DNA of 64,000 nucleotides. Source: Hyphomicrobiales bacterium. Its GTDB lineage: Bacteria; Pseudomonadota; Alphaproteobacteria; Rhizobiales; Devosiaceae. Positions 11,594 through 62,519 of this stretch are shown here, piece after piece (within the stretch, counting starts at the first letter, position 1; each line of letters begins with the position of its first letter). The stretch covers positions 62,001 through 126,000 of the forward strand of contig SEEL01000003.1 of NCBI GenBank assembly GCA_004144345.1. The letters run 5' to 3'. Both the position numbers and the translations under genes were made by a program. The notes under the pieces are model-generated. The model had not been told where the DNA came from, did no database searches, and was given only the letters and a program-made list of their open reading frames with translations.

Positions 11594-11629
11594 GATGGTG
11601 GGTGTAACAGGGATTGAACCTGTGACCCC
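11594..11629 (-). repeat. Partial copy of the tRNA-Val 3' end: probable attachment site marking the left edge of the island
   Basis: This 36-base block matches 11476-11511 (T-arm, acceptor 3' strand and CCA of tRNA-Val) with one mismatch (11488 g versus 11606 a). Beyond the variable loop the similarity stops abruptly, and no anticodon or D-arm can be folded. It is therefore a tRNA fragment, not a second tRNA. Such 3'-end fragments are the classic scar of site-specific integration at a tRNA gene. A remnant of a disrupted tandem tRNA-Val is the alternative. Confidence 0.75.
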
Positions 11630-11958
11630 TACCCACTAGCAAGACGCTATCGATTTCCTGATCAGCCTCAATGGGTTGAAGGCTATCAGCTCAACAGACG
11701 ATGTTCAAACAATCTCAAGGAAAAGGTAGAGCTTGGGACAGGATTGTGACCGGTGGGGTGGGGCAGGTGACAGGGGCGGCCCATAGGCTAGCGTATATGG
11801 CCCCGGCGTAATTTCTAAGCTCATGAGTGTAAACTGCTTGGCCTCCCCAGAACGCCTAGTGGGTTGGCTGGGGATTCTGAAGTGTGTTCTGCTTCTGTTC
11901 TTTGGTGTTGATATCGCATGGTGTAGGGTGACGTTGGACGACCGAGTGGACCTGCAGC
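11630..11958. other. Left arm of the island, no recognised gene
   Basis: About 330 bases of lower-GC sequence between the tRNA fragment and the methyltransferase gene. It contains G-rich tracts (11752-11780, such as ggtggggtggggcaggtgacagggg) and a possible but unconvincing 64-codon frame at 11823-12017 that overlaps the methyltransferase start. No promoter or family match is recognised. Confidence 0.5.
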
Positions 11959-13668
11959 TTGCCAGCCTTCAAGAGACTACCCTCCCAAATTGCCCTCCCC
12001 GGTTTCTCCGGGATTGAAGATGCCGTTGAGATGATGGCGGCAGGCAGCGCAGACGAACGTGGAGCCATATACACGCGGTCTGAGGTAGTTGCGTTCATTC
12101 TCGACCTGATCGGCTACACTGCGGACCGCCCCCTCCAGCACATGAGGCTCCTTGAGCCCTCGTTCGGGGACGCCGATTTCCTAGTTCCGGCAATCGACCG
12201 CCTGCTAGCCGCGTTTGAAGCGTCGGGTGATCTTACAAGTCCTGTGCTTGCGCTGAAGGACGCTGTCAGGGGCGTTGAGCTCCACCATGAGACGTTTGCC
12301 AAAACTCGCGGCCTCGTCGCTGAGAAGCTACGGGAATGGGGGGTATCCCAAAGTGAAGCGAAGACACTAGCAGGTCATTGGCTCGTGCAGGGGGACTTTC
12401 TCCTGTGGGATCCAGATATTGCCTTCACACATGTCGTGGGGAATCCGCCGTACGTGCGCCAAGAGCTGATCCCTGATGTTCTGATGTCAGAATATCGCCG
12501 GAGGTTCCGTAGCATCTACGACAGAGCGGACCTCTATGTGCCGTTCATTGAACAAGGGCTGGCAGTTCTCGCGCCCAAGGGGCAGCTTGGCTACATTTGT
12601 GCCGACAGGTGGATGAAGAACCGCTATGGCGCTCCGCTTCGCAGTCTGATCTCGGAGCAGTACCACTTATCGACCTATGTCGACATGTTCGACACACCAG
12701 CGTTTCACAGCGAAGTCACCGCCTACCCTGCGATCATGGTTCTGGTGAACGACAGCGGCACCACAACACGCGTTGCGCATCGCCCAGAAATAGAAGCGGG
12801 CAACCTATCCCAACTCACTTTGGCACTCCGGGATGGGAGGCCCCACCAATCTGTGGCTACGGTTGAAAACGCAGTGAACGGATCCGAGCCGTGGATACTC
12901 GACTCTGCTGATCAGTTGGCAGTTGTTCGGAGACTTGAAGCGAAATTCTCCCCAATCGAGGAAGTGGGCTGCAAAGTCGGCATCGGTGTCGCTACGGGGG
13001 CCGACCGCGTGTTTATCGGCAAGTACGACGAGATGGACGTTGAGCCGCAGCGGAAGCTGCCCCTAGCCATGAGTCGTGACCTCGTGACTGGCAAAGTCGT
13101 GTGGTGTGGCCACGGCGTCCTGAACCCTTTTGAGGATGACGGCAGCCTTGCGCCGCTGTCTGAGTACCCGAAATTCGCTGCATATCTTGGGAAGCATGCG
13201 ACAGAGATACGTAGCCGTCACGTCTCGAAGAAGAACCCAGATGGTTGGTACAGGACCATAGATAGAATTTACAGGCCACTCACCTACAAGCCGAAGCTCC
13301 TATTCCCCGACATCAAGGGAGAAGCGAACGTTGTGTTCGAGGAGGGCAAACTTTATCCCCACCACAACCTCTACGTCCTGACCTCCGAAGAGTGGGACCT
13401 CAGGGCACTGCAGGCGATAATGTTGTCGGCTGTCGCTCGTCTTTTTGTGGCGACATACTGCACGAAAATGCGTGGCGGCTTCCTTCGGTTCCAGGCTCAG
13501 TATGTCCGACGCATTCGCCTTCCAAAGTGGGAGGCCGTTCCAGCGAAATTGCAGAAGAGGCTGACGCACGCAGGAAAGTCAGGTGATCGGCGTGAATGCA
13601 ATGCGGCTGCGGCTTTGGTGTACGGACTTAGTGCCAGTGAGCAAGAGCTAATTGGAATGGGTGATTAG
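11959..13668 (+). CDS. Type II DNA N6-adenine methyltransferase, PaeR7I-like (Eco57I/M.PaeR7I family)
   Basis: A 569-residue stand-alone adenine methyltransferase that would protect host DNA from the endonuclease encoded two bases downstream. Motif I for AdoMet binding is [12 protein letters not shown] (about 64-75) and catalytic motif IV is NPPYVR (about 162-167). The N-terminal [18 protein letters not shown] stretch is usual for the M.PaeR7I-type family, and the C-terminal half would be the target-recognition part. If it is a true PaeR7I/XhoI isoschizomer it methylates CTCGAG. The TTG start at 11959 lies slightly upstream of the conserved block, and a later start is possible. Confidence 0.88.
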
Positions 13669-13670
13669 TC

Positions 13671-14411
13671 ATGGGCTTGGATCTGGCTAACTACGAACAC
13701 GAGGCCCGCGAGGCTATAAAGCTGTTCTGGGGCAATCGGCACGCAGCGGTTGAGAAACAGAAGCTCGCCGGCAAAATTGACGCTGGGGAGCGCGCTGGTG
13801 TCACTTCAGGGAAGAACATGGATGGGTTCTTCGCCCTTATCGTGGCGCTTATAGAAAAGAATGGGCTGTGGGACGCAGAGGTTCACCTGCAGCGAAGGGT
13901 CCTAACCCTGCCGGGCTATTTTCGACCGACCAAGCTCTGGGACATTCTCGTCATGCGACGAGGTCAGCTAGTTGCAGCGCTAGAGTTCAAATCTCAGATA
14001 GGCCCGAGCTTCGGCAATAACTTCAACAACCGCACCGAGGAAGCGATTGGGACCGCCCATGACATGTGGACTGCGTATCGAGAAAATGGATTCGGCAAGG
14101 ATCATCCAAGGCCATTTGTGGGCTGGCTCATGCTTCTAGAGCACTGCTCCGAATCTACCACTGCAGTAAAAGATCGTTCGCCACACTTTCCCATATTCCC
14201 AGAATTTCGTGCGGCGTCGTATGCTCAGCGTTACAACTTGCTTTGCCAGAAACTAATGCAAGAGAACCTATATTCAGCGGCCGCCGTGATTACATCGCCG
14301 CGATCAGCGAGGGACGATGGCCAGTTTTTTGAGCTAGCTGAGACAAGCAGTCTTAAGAATTTCGTCGTTTCATTCGCCGGACACATAGCTGCGGAAGCGG
14401 CGCGAAGCTAG
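13671..14411 (+). CDS. PaeR7I/XhoI family type II restriction endonuclease
   Basis: A 246-residue endonuclease, the usual PaeR7I length. The family hallmark [20 protein letters not shown] lies at about residues 105-124. Asp 91 (LWDIL) followed by E105-F-K107 makes a PD-(D/E)xK-type active site. The family recognises CTCGAG in the characterised members PaeR7I and XhoI, so the same target is inferred here. It starts two bases after the methyltransferase stop, so the modification gene is translated first. No controller (C) gene is visible. Confidence 0.9.
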
Positions 14412-14558: not shown

Positions 14559-15815
14559 GTGACTTTGGGGGACCTGTTGGCCACTTACGATCCTAGAATG
14601 CTTCTTGAGGGTTTGCGAAGTCACCTCACTCAACCCGAGGCGAATGTAGCGTTTCTCTTGGGCGCAGGGGCGTCAAGTTCCGTGCGTGTTGAGATCCAAG
14701 ATGTGGAGATTGATGCTAAGGACAAGCCTACCACACGTCCCCTCATCCCGAATGTCGGCGAACTCACCGCAATCTGCATGAAGGAGGTGCGCCGGCTAGA
14801 TCCCGAAGGGGAGCCGCAGAGGTTTAGCAAGGCTCTGGAGGAATTTGAGCTTGAGGTTCGTCCGGCGAACCGGCCTTCCAACATCGAAGACATTCTATCC
14901 TGCATTCGGCGGAAGGTAGAGGCGATTGGGGGGCATGATACGCTGGGCGGCCTAGGTCTTGCTGAACTCAAGAAGATGGACGAGGTCATTCGATCTACAA
15001 TCGCGCAGCAGGTGAACCCCGATAGTTCTGACTTCCCGCCGAAGCTTCCCCACGAGGACCTTGTACGCTGGATCTCACGCATGCCCCGGCGCAATGCCGT
15101 TGAGATCTTCACCACTAACTACGACGTTCTGATCGAGACCGCACTTGAAGCCGAGCGCGTGGCGTCATTTGACGGGTTCGTGGGGTGCAATCGTCCGTAC
15201 TTCTCGCATGAGAGCCTCACGCGCCCTGAGAGCATGCCAGGAGCAATGTGGACGCGACTGTGGAAGATACACGGATCTATCAACTGGAAGACGGAGACCG
15301 TCAGGGGGAGGCCCCGGATCATCAGGGGATCGCCCACAACTGACGGCGAGATGATCCTTCCTTCTCATCACAAGTACGACGAGTCACGCAAGCAGCCCTA
15401 TATCGCGTTCATGGACAGGTTGGCCAAAGTCCTCGACAGAGATGATGCGATTCTCATTGTCTGTGGTTCGAGCTTTTCCGACGAGCACATCAACACGATC
15501 ATATTCGACGGGCTAGAAGCAAAGCGTCGGCCCCATGTTGTCGCCCTGCAATATGATGACGTGGAGGATGACAGTATCCTCGGAATGCGAGCCAAGAGGC
15601 ATCTCAACCTAATGGTAGTGTGCCCCACTTGTGTCTATCTCGGCGGACGGCGAATGAGTTGGAAGCTGAGCGAACTTCGCGATCCTGACCAGTATCAGAA
15701 CGAATTTATCGTATCGGCAAAGGATGGTGAGAATGCGGACGGAACCGGTCGCCTCTTGCTTGGCGACTTTGCGGCATTCACGAAATTTCTCGCAACGCTG
15801 GTTGGAAGACAGTAG
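14559..15815 (+). CDS. SIR2-like (SIR2_2) NADase-type effector of a SIR2-HerA antiphage system
   Basis: A 418-residue protein with SIR2_2 landmarks: nucleotide-binding LLGAGASSS (about 33-41), FTTNYDVLIE (183-192), KIHGSINW (235-242, whose His is the expected catalytic residue) and CGSSFSDEHIN. In characterised SIR2-HerA systems the SIR2 subunit acts as an NAD-depleting and/or nuclease effector held in a large complex with HerA during phage infection. This gene's stop overlaps the HerA start by one base (TAGTG). The GTG at 14559 has no ribosome site. A TTG at 14577 with GGGGGA just upstream is an equally good start. Confidence 0.9.
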   Translation: MTLGDLLATYDPRMLLEGLRSHLTQPEANVAFLLGAGASSSVRVEIQDVEIDAKDKPTTRPLIPNVGELTAICMKEVRRLDPEGEPQRFSKALEEFELEVRPANRPSNIEDILSCIRRKVEAIGGHDTLGGLGLAELKKMDEVIRSTIAQQVNPDSSDFPPKLPHEDLVRWISRMPRRNAVEIFTTNYDVLIETALEAERVASFDGFVGCNRPYFSHESLTRPESMPGAMWTRLWKIHGSINWKTETVRGRPRIIRGSPTTDGEMILPSHHKYDESRKQPYIAFMDRLAKVLDRDDAILIVCGSSFSDEHINTIIFDGLEAKRRPHVVALQYDDVEDDSILGMRAKRHLNLMVVCPTCVYLGGRRMSWKLSELRDPDQYQNEFIVSAKDGENADGTGRLLLGDFAAFTKFLATLVGRQ

Positions 15816-17620
15816 TGGCCAGCATAGATCCAACCTTTGTCGGTCAAGTCGCCTCAGTCAGCGGTGGCATTGTCAGAGTCCGGCTGCGTCACGATCTTCC
15901 GACGACCTTGGTCTTGGTAGAGGGTGAGTCCTACCGAGTGGGACAGATCGGCGGTTTCTTTCGGATCCCAGTCGGGTACACGCAGCTATATGCAGTATGC
16001 ACACAAGTTGGCGCTGACGCGGTTCCTCCCACTTCGTCGGAAGACTACAGTCGAATCGAACAAGATCCCGCAATCAACGACGGACTCCACGGCTTCAGGT
16101 GGATGACAGTGGTGTTGTTTGGCGAGTCCGTCAGCGATCGCTTTGAGCGAGGAGTCGGTCAGTACCCAACGGTGGGTGACGAGGTCCACTTTGTGACCAG
16201 CCACGACCTTAGCGTCGTGTATGGCCAGGTGGACAACAAAGTCGGCCTAACTATCGGCAGTATCGCGTCGAGTGGTGGAATTCCCGCAGCCCTGAACCTC
16301 GACAAGCTTGTGACGCGCCACAGCTCCATTGTCGGTTCGACGGGCTCGGGAAAGTCAAATCTGGTTTCCGTGGTACTCGATGGGTTGAGCAATCCCGACT
16401 ACCCGTCAGCACGAATACTAGTGATCGACCCGCATGGTGAATACACGAAGATTGCGCCTGCCCGCTCCAAGACCTTTCGATTGAGCCCCAGTGAACACGA
16501 ATCTCAGCTAGTCGTACCCTATTGGGCTTTGCCGTTTGATGAGCTGATCACCGTCACCTTTGGAGCAATGTCCACGACGAACGAGGCCATTGTCCGCGAC
16601 ATGGTCGAAGACATGAAGCGAGAGGCAGCGGCGCACCTAAAAATTGAAACTGACAAGAGCAACGTAACGGCAGATTCGCCCATACCTTTCAGCATAAGGA
16701 GGCTGTGGTTCGAACTCGACGACTACGAGAGAGCCACCTTTCGTATGGAAGATAAGGAGCGCGTGAGAGCCAGAATTGTGTCTCATGGCGACCCAGAAAA
16801 GCTGATCTCCAATGAGTACGAGGCCTATCAACCCGGAGCAAAGGAGCCGTTCAAAAATCCTTCGCCGCGTGGCATCGGTAGGCAACTAGAGTTTGCACGT
16901 AGCAGACTTAGGGACCCCCGCTACGAGTTTCTCTTCAGTCCGTCCGGCGGATACAACCCCGACGTGACCGGAAAGGTAGTGTCGGACCTAGATGCTCTAG
17001 TTGCTTCGTGGGTTGGTCACGATAGGCCGCTGACTGTGCTAGACGTTTCCGAGCTTCCGTCTGATGTCGCGCCGGATGTAGTGGGCCTCTTGGTCCGCGT
17101 CGTCTACGACGCACTTCTGTGGGCCGGGGACAGTCCCGTCAGCGGTCGCGCGCAACCCCTCTTGATTGTAGTGGACGAGGCTCACAGGTTCGTACCGGAG
17201 GGCGGATCAAGCAGCTGCCACCGCACCCTTATGCAGGTCGCAAAAGAAGGAAGAAAATTTGGCGTCGGCCTAATGGTCGTCACGCAGCGTCCCAGTGAGA
17301 TCGACAGTGCGATTCTTAGTCAATGCGGCACCATGATTGCCCTGAGGACGACCAACGGCAATGACAGACGAACCGTGGCAGCGGCATTTCCGGACGATCT
17401 GGGCGCACTGGCTGACCTCCTGCCTTCTCTCCGTACTGGCGAGGGCCTTTTCGTTGGGGAGGCCATGTTCGTGCCATCTCGCGTCAGAATACGGCTGGGG
17501 GACGGCAGCGATAGCAGCGGCGATCCGAAAGTCTCCGCGCGATGGCAGGGCGCACAGCGGCCGGAGGCAGGGGCCTACAGCAAGGCGATCCAAAGATGGC
17601 GACATCAGTCACTGGAGTGA
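15815..17620 (+). CDS. HerA-like ATPase (DUF87) of a SIR2-HerA antiphage system
   Basis: A 601-residue hexameric FtsK-HerA superfamily translocase. An N-terminal HAS-barrel (about 1-60, FVGQVASVSGGIVRVRL) precedes Walker A GSTGSGKSN (about 174-182), followed by IDPHGEY. A Walker B segment, LLIVVDEAHRF, and the late motif VVTQRPSEID complete the RecA-like core. It starts with GTG overlapping the SIR2 stop, so the two subunits are translationally coupled. Standard HerA-NurA DNA repair is unlikely, because the neighbour is SIR2, not NurA. Confidence 0.93.
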   Translation: MASIDPTFVGQVASVSGGIVRVRLRHDLPTTLVLVEGESYRVGQIGGFFRIPVGYTQLYAVCTQVGADAVPPTSSEDYSRIEQDPAINDGLHGFRWMTVVLFGESVSDRFERGVGQYPTVGDEVHFVTSHDLSVVYGQVDNKVGLTIGSIASSGGIPAALNLDKLVTRHSSIVGSTGSGKSNLVSVVLDGLSNPDYPSARILVIDPHGEYTKIAPARSKTFRLSPSEHESQLVVPYWALPFDELITVTFGAMSTTNEAIVRDMVEDMKREAAAHLKIETDKSNVTADSPIPFSIRRLWFELDDYERATFRMEDKERVRARIVSHGDPEKLISNEYEAYQPGAKEPFKNPSPRGIGRQLEFARSRLRDPRYEFLFSPSGGYNPDVTGKVVSDLDALVASWVGHDRPLTVLDVSELPSDVAPDVVGLLVRVVYDALLWAGDSPVSGRAQPLLIVVDEAHRFVPEGGSSSCHRTLMQVAKEGRKFGVGLMVVTQRPSEIDSAILSQCGTMIALRTTNGNDRRTVAAAFPDDLGALADLLPSLRTGEGLFVGEAMFVPSRVRIRLGDGSDSSGDPKVSARWQGAQRPEAGAYSKAIQRWRHQSLE

Positions 17621-17623
17621 GCG

Positions 17624-17836
17624 ATGGAACTAGTCTACGTAGGCTCTTCATGGGTCGATCAAATCGGCTTTGACGGCGCAGAGCAGGAAATCCACGTGAT
17701 CTCCCGCAAGGGAGACCACTACATCTACACCGGCTGTTCAGAAGACGTCTGGAACAACCTTCTAAATGCGCAGTCCAAAGGCACCTTCATCAACGAAGAG
17801 TTGAAGGGGAGAGGTTACTCCTTCCGAAGGGGCTAA
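17624..17836 (+). CDS. KTSC domain-containing small protein linked to SIR2-HerA
   Basis: A 70-residue protein with the KTSC-domain pattern: VGSSWVDQIGFD, then an HYIYTGCSEDVWNNLLNA stretch, and a Phe-Asn-Glu-x-L-x-Gly-Arg-like ending (here FINEELKGRGYSFR). KTSC domains are small beta-rich modules common in phages and mobile elements, with no established activity. The ATG lies three bases after the HerA stop with a GGAG ribosome site inside the HerA end, so it is co-translated as a third gene. A role as regulator or trigger of SIR2-HerA is only a hypothesis. Its stop overlaps the convergent polymerase-like gene by four bases (CTAA). Confidence 0.85.
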   Translation: MELVYVGSSWVDQIGFDGAEQEIHVISRKGDHYIYTGCSEDVWNNLLNAQSKGTFINEELKGRGYSFRRG

Positions 17837-19194
17837 GCGACCATGGAGTCCAGCGGCGGAGCTAGTGCGCCCTTTGCGGATCGCAGCCGACAGTGGTGAC
17901 CCGTCTTCGCAAGGAACGCTTCTGACATGCTTTTCCTTAGGTCAAATTCATGCGCTGCCTGAACAACGAAGGAATCGTGTATAGGCAGTATCGGGATTCC
18001 CCGTGTGGCAAATGATGACATCACCATGTCGGCGATATCTGAGTCCTTGCGTTGAAGTCTCAAGCCGCATCCTGATCCGAGGAAGACTGCTAAGGGACCA
18101 AAGTGCTGCTTAACCCCTCCGACAAACTGATGCCATGTCATGCCAGCCTCTACTGAGGAGAACTCCGGCAACTGGTCGATGTTGCTGCTTCCGGCATTGA
18201 GCAAAGCGTTGAATGTCTTCTTGATCAGAGGGCGCGATCCGCAGGATGCGACGTACGGGTCGAAAGCTAGCTGAATGCCAAGTTCCGCGTACAGCATTGT
18301 GGGATGCATCCAGCAGTAGTCAACCTCAACGGTAGGCTTCCCGTCGATTGTTAGGTAGCGACGATACCCCTCGGGACAGTTCTGGTACGCGGCGCCATAA
18401 AAGCGTCCTCCATGCTGAAAGTCGACGTTGAAAACCCGGTACAATGGGTTGGCTAGGAATCCGTCAAGCTTGTACATGCGCTCCCCCATGACATCGGCCT
18501 TGAACGCAGCGGCCCGTTCCATCTCTAGCCACTGATCGTCTCGCAATGAGAGCTGAATGGTGTGCGCGCCATTGATGCGGTTGATCAGCTCAAGCGAGGC
18601 CGCCATCTCTCTCACATCTGACGTTTCTACAAACGGTAGCAGTACACGCTCCCCCTTCGCGTCACGGGCTGAACGAAGTCTGATGGGGTGTGACGACCGA
18701 CGCCTGATCGACTCTGGCCCGCTCGGCGGAGCGAGACAACGCAATGCACTTGTTGGCCAAACCGAGGCACTTCTACGAAAGGACGAGCTCCTCGATGAGC
18801 GGCCACGATCAAGGATGAGTAGCCCCTCTGCTTCTAGGAACTGAATAACTCTTGTGGCCGCATTGAAGGTGACGAAGGGACCTAGGAAATGACGGTGCTT
18901 GGCGTACCAGCTTCGGTTCATCGAAAGGGAGATACGATACACGCGACTCGAACCGACAGCCTCAAGCAGATTTGCAAGCACAGCGCCAAACGTATGCGAA
19001 AGCGCTTCGGCAAAAGATGACCTGTGGGGTTTTGCACTTGATATCATCTTGCACAAAAGGCCACCTGAAAAAGGCGTGACCGGCGCGTTCAATAGCCAGT
19101 CAATGCGATGCTCGCGCTCTGGACGTACGGCATCTGAAACACTCATTAGAATGGTACTCTGGATCTCGGCCAAACACGCAGTCTCACTCTGCAC
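17833..19194 (-). CDS. Uncharacterised protein with polymerase-palm-like motifs (family A / T7 RNA polymerase-like) and N-terminal winged helix
   Basis: A 453-residue protein I cannot assign to a named family. Residues about 90-130 (SLSMNRSW, then FVTFNAATRVIQFLEAEGLL) look like a winged helix of replication-initiator type. The C-terminal half has FNVDFQHGGRFYGAAYQN (about 255-272), then VEVDYCWMHPTMLY (289-302), RPLIKKTFNALLNA (321-334) and PILPIHDSFVV (401-411). These resemble motif A (D292), motif B (R321, K325/K326) and motif C (HDS, 406-408) of single-subunit polymerases. Family and activity are inference. The start is uncertain: GTG at 19194 or ATG at 19146, neither with a good ribosome site. 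Confidence 0.8.
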   Translation of the reverse strand: MQSETACLAEIQSTILMSVSDAVRPEREHRIDWLLNAPVTPFSGGLLCKMISSAKPHRSSFAEALSHTFGAVLANLLEAVGSSRVYRISLSMNRSWYAKHRHFLGPFVTFNAATRVIQFLEAEGLLILDRGRSSRSSSFRRSASVWPTSALRCLAPPSGPESIRRRSSHPIRLRSARDAKGERVLLPFVETSDVREMAASLELINRINGAHTIQLSLRDDQWLEMERAAAFKADVMGERMYKLDGFLANPLYRVFNVDFQHGGRFYGAAYQNCPEGYRRYLTIDGKPTVEVDYCWMHPTMLYAELGIQLAFDPYVASCGSRPLIKKTFNALLNAGSSNIDQLPEFSSVEAGMTWHQFVGGVKQHFGPLAVFLGSGCGLRLQRKDSDIADMVMSSFATRGIPILPIHDSFVVQAAHEFDLRKSMSEAFLAKTGHHCRLRSAKGALAPPLDSMVA

Positions 19195-19277: not shown

Positions 19278-19784
19278 TTATGCGACCTCGCTCGCAAAGA
19301 GGTCTTTCCCGTCAAACTTGCGAATAGGCTTTGCGAAGCACCAGGGCGGAAGCGTGGAGCGACGCGGCCCTAGCTCCCAAATCTCAAACTTGTCGAGGCG
19401 CGCTGCCGTGGGGTTGATGCTGACGATGCGCTGCATGCCATCTACAATAGACCTTAGCTGCATCCTGCTGATATCGCCGCTCCAAAGGGACGTTCCAGCG
19501 TCTCTCAGTCCGTTCCTCTCCAAGAGTCCTTCAATGGTGTTACGCAAAGTCTTCTTCTTTGTGTGACCGTCGAGAATGCGCGTAGCAATGATCACAGGTG
19601 ATAGCTCTGCCTGATCGCAGAGATCCATTAGGTAGTCCAAAAGAAATATCCCTAGATAGTCATGCGGGGAGAACGGATGCGAAAAAAACACAGGTAGTCC
19701 CTGTGCACGTAGTCGTTGGCCGCCGTTACCCAGCCAAATCCCCGTTGACTTTGAGAAGGTACGTGATTCTGCGGGGCGCGTCAA
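19278..19784 (-). CDS. Hypothetical protein upstream of the polymerase-like gene
   Basis: A soluble protein of up to 168 residues with no recognised domain. Features include GIFLLDYLMDLCDQAELSPVI, a basic segment GHTKKKTLRNTI, and a C-terminal WELGPRRSTLPPWCFAKPIR. It ends 83 bases before the polymerase-like gene on the same strand, so co-transcription is likely and a functional pairing possible. The only start giving the full frame is TTG at 19784, without a ribosome site. A later start would shorten it by some 30-60 residues. Confidence 0.6.
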   Translation of the reverse strand: MTRPAESRTFSKSTGIWLGNGGQRLRAQGLPVFFSHPFSPHDYLGIFLLDYLMDLCDQAELSPVIIATRILDGHTKKKTLRNTIEGLLERNGLRDAGTSLWSGDISRMQLRSIVDGMQRIVSINPTAARLDKFEIWELGPRRSTLPPWCFAKPIRKFDGKDLFASEVA

Positions 19785-20180: not shown

Positions 20181-21164
20181 CTACCAGCGGCTGCTTTCGA
20201 GCTTCCCCGCAATGCGCTGAACGTCAGGATGTGAGTACCTACCCAGCTGTGACAGTGTGCGGTGGCCGCTGACCAGCTGAGCCTCCGGTACGGTCAGCCC
20301 CATCTCAAAAAGTCGGCTGATCGCTTCGTGTCTCAAGTCATGAAAGCGGAACGTCACTCCGGAGCTCTTCCGTGCCCTGGCAAAGGCCAGCTTGAATGCG
20401 ACCAAAGTGATCTGCACTACCGGTCCCTCCCGATGGGGCAGGCTGCCTAGCACCGTCATAGCTTGAGGAGAGAGGGGTACCATGCGCGGGTGCCCGTTCT
20501 TGGCGGACCTAATCAAAAGCCGTCTCGCACCTAGGTCGATGTCTGACCAATCCAAACGGAGGATCTCGCCGCGCCTCATGCAAGTGGAGATTGCCAACTC
20601 CAAGGAAATCCTGAGCGCTGGATTCTTCAGACGCCTGCTGGCTTCGCATATCCTCTCAAATTCGCTCTCGGAAATGCGCGCGACCGGTTTGATGGCAACC
20701 TTCGGCATTCGGATGCGCCTGATATCGTCGAGCTTCACGGGCCAGCCCCACTCCTGCTTGGCCACCTTCAACGCATGCAGTAGCAACCTCAGATGCCGAA
20801 CCACCGAACTTGGTTTTGAGACTTTAAGTCTGGCGTCTCGATAGGCAGCCACATCGGTGGTCGAAAGCAGATGCAGAGGCTTGGAGGCCATTGGGTCACG
20901 GCGCATCACCCGTATCATGAAGTCTTCGCTGCTGTCGGACTCGCGCCCCTGCACCACTTCCTTTTCATAGCGCTGCAGGACGTCATCCAGAGAGTACGTG
21001 CAATTGCCCTGCTTAGGAACGTCGCTTGCCTCGGCGGCCAACTCGGCAGAGCGCGCCCATGCCGCTGCGTCTGCCTTGAGGGTAAAAGTTCGGGTGACTG
21101 CATGCTCGCCGGTCCTTCTGATTTGGACCTGCCATTTGCCGTTTCGCTTACGGAACGTCGCCAT
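20181..21164 (-). CDS. Tyrosine recombinase (phage-type integrase)
   Basis: A 327-residue site-specific recombinase that would integrate and excise the island. The N-terminal MATFRKRNGKWQVQIRRTG is the arm-type DNA-binding domain and the middle is a core-binding domain. The catalytic set is visible: R197 (TCMRRGEIL), K222 (SAKNG), H275-x-x-R278 (FHDLRHEA), H301 (SGHRTL) and the nucleophile Y310 (GRYSHPD). All residues are present, so the enzyme should be active. It lies 77 bases from tRNA-Thr, the usual position next to an attachment site. Confidence 0.94.
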   Translation of the reverse strand: MATFRKRNGKWQVQIRRTGEHAVTRTFTLKADAAAWARSAELAAEASDVPKQGNCTYSLDDVLQRYEKEVVQGRESDSSEDFMIRVMRRDPMASKPLHLLSTTDVAAYRDARLKVSKPSSVVRHLRLLLHALKVAKQEWGWPVKLDDIRRIRMPKVAIKPVARISESEFERICEASRRLKNPALRISLELAISTCMRRGEILRLDWSDIDLGARRLLIRSAKNGHPRMVPLSPQAMTVLGSLPHREGPVVQITLVAFKLAFARARKSSGVTFRFHDLRHEAISRLFEMGLTVPEAQLVSGHRTLSQLGRYSHPDVQRIAGKLESSRW

Positions 21165-21241
21165 TCTTGAATCGCCTGTGACTGGTTTGTGACCAGAGGC
21201 GGCTTCAGACTAGGGCTTTTTCGCTAAGTGCTTGAAATTGC

Positions 21242-21317
21242 TGGTGCCGCTTAGGTGACTCGAACACCTGACCCCATCATTACGAATGATGTGCTCTACC
21301 AACTGAGCTAAAGCGGC
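21242..21317 (-). tRNA. tRNA-Thr (anticodon CGT)
   Basis: On the minus strand the acceptor GCCGCTT pairs with AAGCGGC, followed by A and CCA. The anticodon stem CATCA/TGATG holds loop TTCGTAA, giving anticodon CGT. The D-arm TAGCTCAGTTGGTAGAGCA and T-loop TTCGAGT are canonical. It is 76 nt with CCA. Its 3' end faces the integrase gene, a common arrangement for island insertion sites, but I find no copy of its 3' end at the other edge of the island. Confidence 0.95.
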
Positions 21318-61878: not shown

Positions 61879-62519
61879 GCTGGCAGGACCGGCCGGCTGA
61901 AATCGCCAGTCTCGTCGTCCATCACCCAGAGCTCGCCGGTCGAGATATCGAACCAGGCGCCATGCACCTTGAGCCGGCCATCGGCCTCGCGCTCGCGGAT
62001 ATAGGGGAAGGTGCGGAGGTTCTTGATCGAGTTGCGAACGCTGAGGCGTTCGAGCAGCGTCTCGCGCTCGGTGTTGGTCATGAACGAATATTTCGCCACT
62101 TCCTCGCTCACCGGCGCCAGCATCGCCATCCATTTGCTGATGAAGTCGCCATGGGCCAGCACATGGCCGGGGTTCAGCGCGGCGCGGATGCCGCCGCAGC
62201 GGCCATGGCCCAGCACCACGAGGTTCTGCACTTCGAGCGCCGCCACGGCAAATTCGATGCCGGCCGAGGTGCCGTGCTGGCCGCCATCGGGCTGGAAGGT
62301 CGGCACGAGGTTGGCGACGTTGCGCAGGACGAACAATTCGCCCGGCCCCGCGTCAAAGATCGTCTCGGGCGCCGCGCGGCTGTCGCAGCAGGCGATCACC
62401 ATCGTGGTGGGGGACTGACCCTCGCTGGCGAGGGTCTTGTAGCGTCCCTCCGCCTCGGCATAGGGGCCACGGATGAAGGCGGCGTAGCCGTCGATGAGGT
62501 GCTGTGGAAAGCTGTGCAT
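61875..62519 (-). CDS. Beta-class carbonic anhydrase
   Basis: A 214-residue zinc enzyme that interconverts CO2 and bicarbonate. The zinc ligands are C45 in ACCDSR, H105 and C108 in LGHGRCGG. The dyad Asp 46-Arg 48 is intact. The length is normal. It converges with the GNAT gene. It would supply bicarbonate for carboxylation reactions. Confidence 0.95.
   Translation of the reverse strand: MHSFPQHLIDGYAAFIRGPYAEAEGRYKTLASEGQSPTTMVIACCDSRAAPETIFDAGPGELFVLRNVANLVPTFQPDGGQHGTSAGIEFAVAALEVQNLVVLGHGRCGGIRAALNPGHVLAHGDFISKWMAMLAPVSEEVAKYSFMTNTERETLLERLSVRNSIKNLRTFPYIREREADGRLKVHGAWFDISTGELWVMDDETGDFSRPVLPA

Follow-up and report, generated by a model that had tools for sequence, protein, structure and literature searches.

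The stretch of DNA analysed here (the window: 64,000 nucleotides, positions 62,001 to 126,000 of contig SEEL01000003.1 of a Hyphomicrobiales bacterium, assembly GCA_004144345.1) contains a 453-amino acid open frame on the minus strand, at 17833-19194 with a GTG start, whose product is predicted with near certainty to have a family A polymerase fold. Polymerases of this type are very likely genes of mobile elements, and the window gene is probably the polymerase of an integrative mobile element at a threonine tRNA gene (tRNA-Thr), with restriction and SIR2-HerA genes as cargo. We moderately favour the view that it is a primase-polymerase that copies this element. Three computed results carry the reading: the fold, the conserved active site and the linkage to recombinases. 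A preliminary description of the same DNA had seen in the protein a single-subunit polymerase or derived enzyme in a defence island, by analogy with reverse-transcriptase systems.

Conservation was read from alignment A4, which holds the window protein and proteins from 59 of 82 loci (the other 23 were fragments or were not chosen), and from a second set of 25 sequences found via other searches, from which one 130-amino acid fragment was excluded. The two overlap: besides the window protein, at least six rows of the second set correspond to proteins of A4, being identical to them or almost so. The protein and its parts are as follows, with counts out of the 60 members of A4.

17833..19194, minus strand: family A polymerase of the TV-Pol/divPolA2 type, 453 amino acids (phrog_4756, AlphaFold2 model, Foldseek)
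18649..19125, minus strand: N-terminal domain, residues 24-182, winged-helix-like (AlphaFold2 model of this part)
18487..18621, minus strand: predicted two-helix thumb, residues 192-236 (model helices 192-209 and 219-236)
18394..18444, minus strand: beta hairpin, residues 251-267, with R253 and R264 (TV-Pol template-strand arginine; 60/60; model strands 251-256 and 262-267)
18283..18339, minus strand: motif A, residues 286-304, with the putative catalytic D292 (60/60; model strand 286-293)
18196..18261, minus strand: fingers and motif B, residues 312-333, with D312 and R321xxxK325 (60/60 each; model helix 321-333)
17959..17988, minus strand: motif C hairpin, residues 403-412, with H406 and D407 (60/60; aligned by hhalign to motif C of PolA and of T7 RNA polymerase)

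The AlphaFold2 model built on A4 had a predicted local distance difference test (pLDDT) score of 84.2 and a predicted template modelling score of 0.81. When it was compared with the PDB using Foldseek, 30 matches were found at E ≤ 1e-3, every one a family A DNA polymerase, as were all 50 matches listed (the best 50 of 487 at E ≤ 10). The best was a Plasmodium apicoplast enzyme (E 1.5e-5); because the template modelling (TM) score is about 0.3 and the root mean square deviation 11, only the core is common to the two. Among viral models, the best eleven matches (E 3.9e-24 to 2.2e-19) are 400-450 amino acids long: two uncharacterised Aeromonas phage proteins, the "DNA polymerase" of Rheinheimera phage Barba31A (E 1.8e-20) and eight proteins that are nameless in the tables. 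Further down come family A polymerases, a replication protein of the Zamilon virophage (E 7.6e-4) and a single RNA polymerase from a phage (E 8.9e-4). The thumb helices were read from the secondary structure of the model, whose confidence in the thumb is low from about residue 231, so that the second helix is partly of low confidence. Beyond thumb and palm the model contains the N-terminal domain alone, whose fold matches are not nucleases, and family scans of the window protein and the A4 members detected no exonuclease family.

Modelled as a separate part (residues 24-182, pLDDT 82.1), the N-terminal domain runs in the order helix, strand, helices and two-strand wing. Bacterial winged-helix regulators head its Foldseek list (5yi1, E 0.023, probability 0.97). 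Several match titles name MarR, and we presume that this label also applies to other matches. The matches begin at E 0.02 with TM scores of about 0.3, none reaching E ≤ 1e-3, and the 50 listed include six chains of plant EDS1 complexes and no RNA polymerase. A winged-helix-like N-terminus is thus weakly suggested by the model.

All the motifs named in the preliminary description lie where it had placed them: GGRFYGAAYQN at residues 262-272, VEVDYCWMHP at 289-298 (including D292), RPLIKKTFNALLNA at 321-334 (motif B) and IHDSFV at 405-410 (including D407). Eleven residues do not vary across A4 (60/60): R253, R264, D292, D312, Y314, R321, K325, S385, H406, D407 and M423. In the second set, D292, K325, H406, D407, Y314, S385, R278 and G306 are found in 25/25 sequences and R253, R264, R321 and D312 in 24/25. 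This conservation is above chance. The palm and fingers fold, the winged-helix-like N-terminus (weakly) and the invariance of D292, K325 and D407 had all been anticipated and were borne out. K326, also expected to be invariant, is lysine in merely 29/60 members, and since S408 is kept in merely 7/60, "HD" rather than "HDS" is the family motif. The spacing had been thought roughly right, but it is much shorter than in known polymerases: 29 residues from the motif A aspartate to the motif B arginine, compared with 49 in a DNA polymerase I (Pol I) and 90 in T7 RNA polymerase, and 85 residues from that arginine to the motif C histidine, compared with 127 and 184, respectively.

Sequence searches placed the protein in phrog_4756, a phage family without assigned function that matched the window protein (E 8.7e-45) and all 60 members of A4. 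A phage RNA polymerase model gave a weak match over motif C (E 0.0068). Scans of the window protein against Pfam, NCBIfam and PADLOC returned no family at E ≤ 1, and sequence searches of solved structures returned no polymerase and nothing under E 0.1. Comparison by hhalign with sets of PolA and RNA polymerases aligned motif C only, at low probability (E 0.012, 3.7% for T7-type RNA polymerases; E 0.031, 1.6% for PolA).

The neighbourhoods of the homologues point to mobile elements. Genes were called with a simple script in 131 loci; removal of 4 duplicates and of 3 loci without a polymerase call longer than 200 amino acids left 124, comprising 117 bacterial loci (the window included) and 7 phage loci (5 distinct, 9-14 kb each). 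Within 9 kb of the polymerase gene, 75 of the 117 bacterial loci have a tyrosine recombinase, 72 a serine recombinase, 96 either and 51 both. For the 74 bacterial loci with full 9-kb flanks, the corresponding numbers are 55, 52, 67 and 40. As a control, the window genome has seven integrase matches (six over the cut-off, its own included) in 4.1 Mb, which implies that about 3% of 18-kb spans hold an integrase, a rough figure from one genome and another profile. The serine recombinase cluster contains 77 proteins, 72 of them 154-253 amino acids in length and five longer; a scanned example matched PF00239 (E 5e-44).

A zinc finger-like protein of 209-314 amino acids, in which we read a C-x4-C...C-x2-H...RHG pattern, is a further recurrent neighbour. 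It is found within 9 kb in 49/117 bacterial loci (34/74 full loci), and in 48 of these 49 cases its gene directly neighbours that of the polymerase on the same strand. The scanned example (L164:11301-12047) had no Pfam match; the protein may be a candidate for the "C3RHD" domain named in the supplement of the 2008 paper on TV-Pols (PMC2579912). In just 15/117 loci does a gene no more than two places from the polymerase contain a Walker A pattern. Clusters identified from scanned examples as HsdM, HsdR and HsdS lie within eight genes in 14, 9 and 7 of the 124 loci, respectively; these are raw counts with no control. Family scans of 145 neighbours, for which the first 25 of 109 families were listed with no matched control, were not used as a defence census.

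The window polymerase lies in an island with the following features.

11596..11633, minus strand: truncated second tRNA-Val copy, likely left edge of the foreign DNA (matches of relatives)
11959..13668, plus strand: type II DNA methyltransferase, cargo (PADLOC PDLC03313, E 1.1e-232)
13671..14411, plus strand: XhoI-like restriction endonuclease, cargo (PF04555, E 1e-89; PADLOC PDLC03540)
14559..15815, plus strand: SIR2 protein of a SIR2-HerA defence pair, cargo (PADLOC PDLC04093, E 4.6e-118)
15815..17620, plus strand: HerA ATPase of the SIR2-HerA pair, cargo (PADLOC PDLC04105, E 5.3e-148)
19278..19784, minus strand: orphan gene, 168 amino acids, directly upstream of the polymerase, possible partner (no convincing family)
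20181..21164, minus strand: tyrosine recombinase (integrase), 327 amino acids (PF00589, E 1.3e-23)
21242..21317, minus strand: tRNA-Thr(CGT), with the right edge of the variable DNA at its 3' end (matches of genus relatives)

At the right edge, a long match starts exactly at 21242 in five of the six genus relatives that reach the tRNA gene and at 21229 in the sixth (G626); four of them (G587, G594, G638 and G626) were re-aligned there. The tRNA-Thr site is variable because the DNA to its left in these relatives differs from that of the window. At the left edge, the matches of six genus relatives end at 11633, and G587 was aligned there. The truncated tRNA-Val copy adjoins an intact tRNA-Val, and at least 10 of 18 genus relatives have two matches to this copy about 150-250 bases apart. 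The restriction genes and SIR2-HerA look like cargo and are probably passengers on a mobile island; the type II restriction-modification pair (11959-14411) looks complete. For the 168-amino acid orphan, tblastn of the fetched loci gave nothing under E 0.04 except in its own genome, and no COG3378/DUF927 helicase was detected among the island proteins scanned. A 70-amino acid gene at 17624-17836, on the opposite strand, shares 4 bases with the end of the polymerase gene and had no PADLOC match; we take it to resemble a KTSC-type protein.

Homologues are widespread. Searches with tblastn (E ≤ 1e-3) found 115 places in 102 phage records, many of which are isolates of one phage, and also matched four plasmids. 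The phage records are mostly from large Vibrio (81) and Aeromonas (14) phages, several ICP1 isolates included. ICP1 gp100 (L029:5047-6714, 555 amino acids, "hypothetical protein") belongs to the family of the window polymerase, and some Vibrio and Aeromonas phages have two places each. Among bacteria, and with the window genome counted each time, 18/199 genomes were positive at the order level by the family model, 27/385 class-wide by profile A1 and 9/121 at the family level with the window protein as query. A scan of the genome collection with profile A2 confirmed 132 stretches, the best 80 of which were kept and lean to the query's subgroup. The scan matches come from alpha-, beta- and gammaproteobacteria, from Nitrospira and from relatives of Desulfovibrio, and one lies on a contig from a bin labelled Planctomycetota. 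Pattern scans with single proteins found nothing for the window protein and one phage protein, and one near-copy each for two other phage proteins.

In a tree of 48 rows, which has many long branches and serves as a guide only, the window protein is sister to a protein of genome G617 (35% identity, support 99/87), and four of six phage rows group with two bacterial rows (support 95/91). The G617 contig (L111:242-5436) encodes a different SIR2-HerA subtype (PDLC04079/PDLC04098) and an SpbK-like gene in which we read a TIR domain. A 21,261-base contig of genome G302 (L250:1-20000) consists of an 8.8-8.9-kb tandem unit with a divergent 597-amino acid polymerase. By Pfam the unit also encodes a RepA_C plasmid initiator and a resolvase, and by eye ParA-like and adenine methylase-like genes. 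A 108-bp tandem repeat (3.4 and 4.4 copies in two units) lies within one gene, which is presumably Sel1-like. That this unit is an element replicating by its polymerase alone was rejected, as the RepA_C initiator is present; the contig therefore documents no more than a family member on a plasmid-like unit.

Several results weigh against an element polymerase. First, neither Pfam DNA_pol_A nor RNA_pol matched any of the 60 A4 members at E ≤ 1, and the polymerase assignment rests on conserved motifs and the predicted fold. Second, no attachment repeats of 12 bases or more were found, and none of 8 or more in the stretches compared. Without a flanking repeat a single element is uncertain, and two insertions may together make up the island. 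Third, by the profiles used, neither recombinase was found in 7/74 full loci, one of which (L027) has an annotated site-specific integrase just beyond 9 kb. Moreover, these counts cannot be treated as independent trials, given the kinship among the loci and the use of the same loci to grow the recombinase profile. Fourth, these profiles found no recombinase in the seven phage loci (5 distinct), and the role may therefore differ in phages. Fifth, no D5-type helicase was detected among the scanned island proteins or the scanned examples of recurrent neighbour clusters, and neither such a helicase nor an OB-fold partner was identified beside the window polymerase, whereas the known primase-polymerase CCPol-MP has a partner and a helicase. 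Finally, no sequence match to a founding TV-Pol was found in Ma-LMM01, a P. denitrificans plasmid or an M. nodulans plasmid, although the TV-Pols of the latter two species may lie outside the plasmids searched.

In Pol I, ribonucleotides are excluded by a motif A glutamate and a motif B phenylalanine, both of which CCPol keeps (PMC7581432). The window protein has histidine at D292+5, where the 60 members have F (19), A (13), G (11), N (5), H (3) and others, with no conserved glutamate. At K325+4 it has asparagine (N in 33, S in 15) and at K325+8 again asparagine (F in 37, S in 9, N in 5). If the gapless motif alignment is right, the Pol I sugar gate and the tyrosine of T7 RNA polymerase would both be absent, which would predict a relaxed choice of sugar.

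On this basis a mechanism can be proposed for the element polymerase. The integrase would excise the element, and the N-terminal domain or a partner would bring the polymerase to element DNA, which the winged-helix-like domain probably binds. D292 and D407 of the palm would hold two metals, the fingers helix R321xxxK325 would take the incoming nucleotide and the hairpin arginine R264 would contact the template. The polymerase would start a strand without a primer and then extend it, so that the excised or incoming element could be copied before reintegration.

It is also conceivable, though unlikely, that the protein is a single-subunit RNA polymerase, its N-terminal winged helix reading element promoters and its core transcribing genes of the element or phage in the manner of T7 RNA polymerase. 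The IHDSF motif C and the GGR hairpin resemble those of T7 RNA polymerase, the hhalign score over motif C is slightly better for T7-type RNA polymerases than for PolA, and the glutamate that blocks ribonucleotides in Pol I is not conserved. In addition, the authors who described divPolA2 left an RNA polymerase open and had mitochondrial RNA polymerase among their structural matches (PMC11348598). Against this, family A DNA polymerases fill all of the best 50 of 487 PDB matches, the position of the T7-type motif B tyrosine (Y639) is mostly phenylalanine, and no RNA polymerase is among the 50 listed matches of the N-terminal domain. Pfam RNA_pol matched none of the 60 members, though this is equally true of DNA_pol_A. 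Membership of the T7-type RNA polymerases was rejected on Pfam, the motif B tyrosine and the fold ranking; the protein could still act like one.

A primer-dependent polymerase that repairs or fills gaps in element or phage DNA is less probable again. In barbaviruses, divPolA2 is accompanied by a regular PolB, and a repair role has been suggested for it (PMC11348598); CCPol without MP needs a primer (PMC7581432), and the window protein has no recognised partner. The linkage to recombinases points instead to copying of the element.

The least probable reading, slightly behind repair, is that of an anti-phage effector which responds to phage infection by synthesising nucleic acid, either by itself or together with SIR2-HerA, in the manner of reverse-transcriptase systems. 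The polymerase stop lies 212 bases from the HerA stop, the nearest tree relative shares its contig with SIR2-HerA and the SpbK-like TIR gene, Hsd clusters accompany some loci, and a possible defence role was raised for PolA-SSB primases (Rice 2023, PMC10061031). However, the polymerase is oriented opposite to HerA and is not matched by PADLOC, and its presence in the 102 phage records (many of them isolates of one phage) is hard to square with an antiphage effector. This reading is kept low because the commonest neighbours are recombinases rather than one defence gene and because the known systems that SIR2-HerA and the restriction pair match contain no such polymerase. The expectation that homologues recur in defence islands held only in so far as they sometimes lie beside restriction or defence genes. 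Since their recurrent partners are recombinases (67/74), the analogy with reverse-transcriptase systems is not supported, and a replication gene of the element, with defence genes as cargo, is more likely.

What seemed a new defence enzyme is thus more likely the replication gene of a vehicle that moves defence systems. As a tentative extension, doubtful as a whole, a single lineage of winged-helix family A primase-polymerases might be common to bacterial integrative elements and tailed phages (the TV-Pol of integrase or resolvase elements being the same as divPolA2). Its members would have lost the Pol I sugar gate, would start by themselves with ribo- or deoxynucleotides and would often have a small zinc finger-like partner in place of MP; in the window, that partner would be the 168-amino acid orphan. 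Apart from this extension, the finding links two bodies of literature, one on the TV-Pols of bacterial elements and one on phage divPolA2; ICP1 gp100 is a member of this family too. Starting without a primer and a relaxed choice of sugar by a family A polymerase are testable predictions.

The preliminary description knew of no characterised system built on such a protein, but TV-Pol (2008), CCPol-MP (2020), PolA-SSB primases (2023) and divPolA2 (2024) are in print. TV-Pols, which mobile elements and viruses carry, are minimal polymerases of family A predicted to combine primase and polymerase activity; the paper that defined them likewise describes a protein in which no domain had previously been identified and which was placed through iterated profiles (Iyer, Abhiman and Aravind 2008, PMC2579912). 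The window protein resembles them in its size (400-600 amino acids), two-aspartate palm, hairpin with an invariant arginine, fingers aspartate and RxxxK, and absence of a nuclease. A counterpart of the antiparallel two-helix thumb of TV-Pols is predicted by the model, its second helix partly at low confidence. Gamma-delta resolvases, lambda-type integrases and restriction operons are TV-Pol neighbours, and alphaproteobacteria are among the hosts (PMC2579912); this type of neighbourhood is seen here in the integrase of the window and in the recombinases of 67/74 full loci. The window protein differs in that the TV-Pol N-terminal domain was described as all-helical (PMC2579912) whereas that of the window protein is modelled as winged-helix-like, and in that the D5 helicase linkage of a TV-Pol subset was not identified beside the window polymerase.

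The tailed-phage polymerases named divPolA2 in 2024 have an N-terminal domain for which, in the available text, no similarity was found (PMC11348598). Profile A4 matched the exemplar AUR84708.1 in MG592441.1 (E 4e-28), and divPolA2 and the window protein are thus of the same family. The Barba31A protein among the Foldseek matches is likewise from a barbavirus. The available text of the 2024 paper mentions "TV-Pol" once, in the Background, and does not tie it to divPolA2 or divPolA2 to bacterial elements (PMC11348598). In the literature searched, part of it available incompletely, we found no statement equating the two. It is highly probable that TV-Pol, divPolA2 and the window protein are the same lineage, the evidence being sequence for divPolA2 and anatomy plus context for TV-Pol.

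Experiments have shown both priming and DNA polymerisation by CCPol-MP (Bebel et al. 2020, PMC7581432), which was placed within TV-Pol by the 2008 authors (PMC2579912); Rice (2023) extended this to PolA-SSB primases, with defence as one possible role (PMC10061031). Like the window gene on the favoured reading, these systems provide a family A core for replication of a recombinase-borne genomic island, in which restriction genes are common (PMC7581432, PMC10061031). CCPol is closer to Pol I, keeping the glutamate and phenylalanine gate that is absent from the window protein, and works with an OB-fold partner and a helicase, neither of which was identified here (PMC7581432).

T7-type RNA polymerases share the family A core, the HDS motif and the GR hairpin, but are twice the size and keep the motif B tyrosine; their Pfam RNA_pol model does not match the window protein. 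Pipolins (piPolB elements) are integrative and encode their own DNA polymerase like the window island, but of family B. They carry a tyrosine recombinase. The window protein joins a polymerase family that is already in print, and the new points are modest: a winged-helix-like N-terminus, weakly suggested by the model, a predicted loss of the Pol I sugar gate, and one family that spans divPolA2 and the element polymerases.

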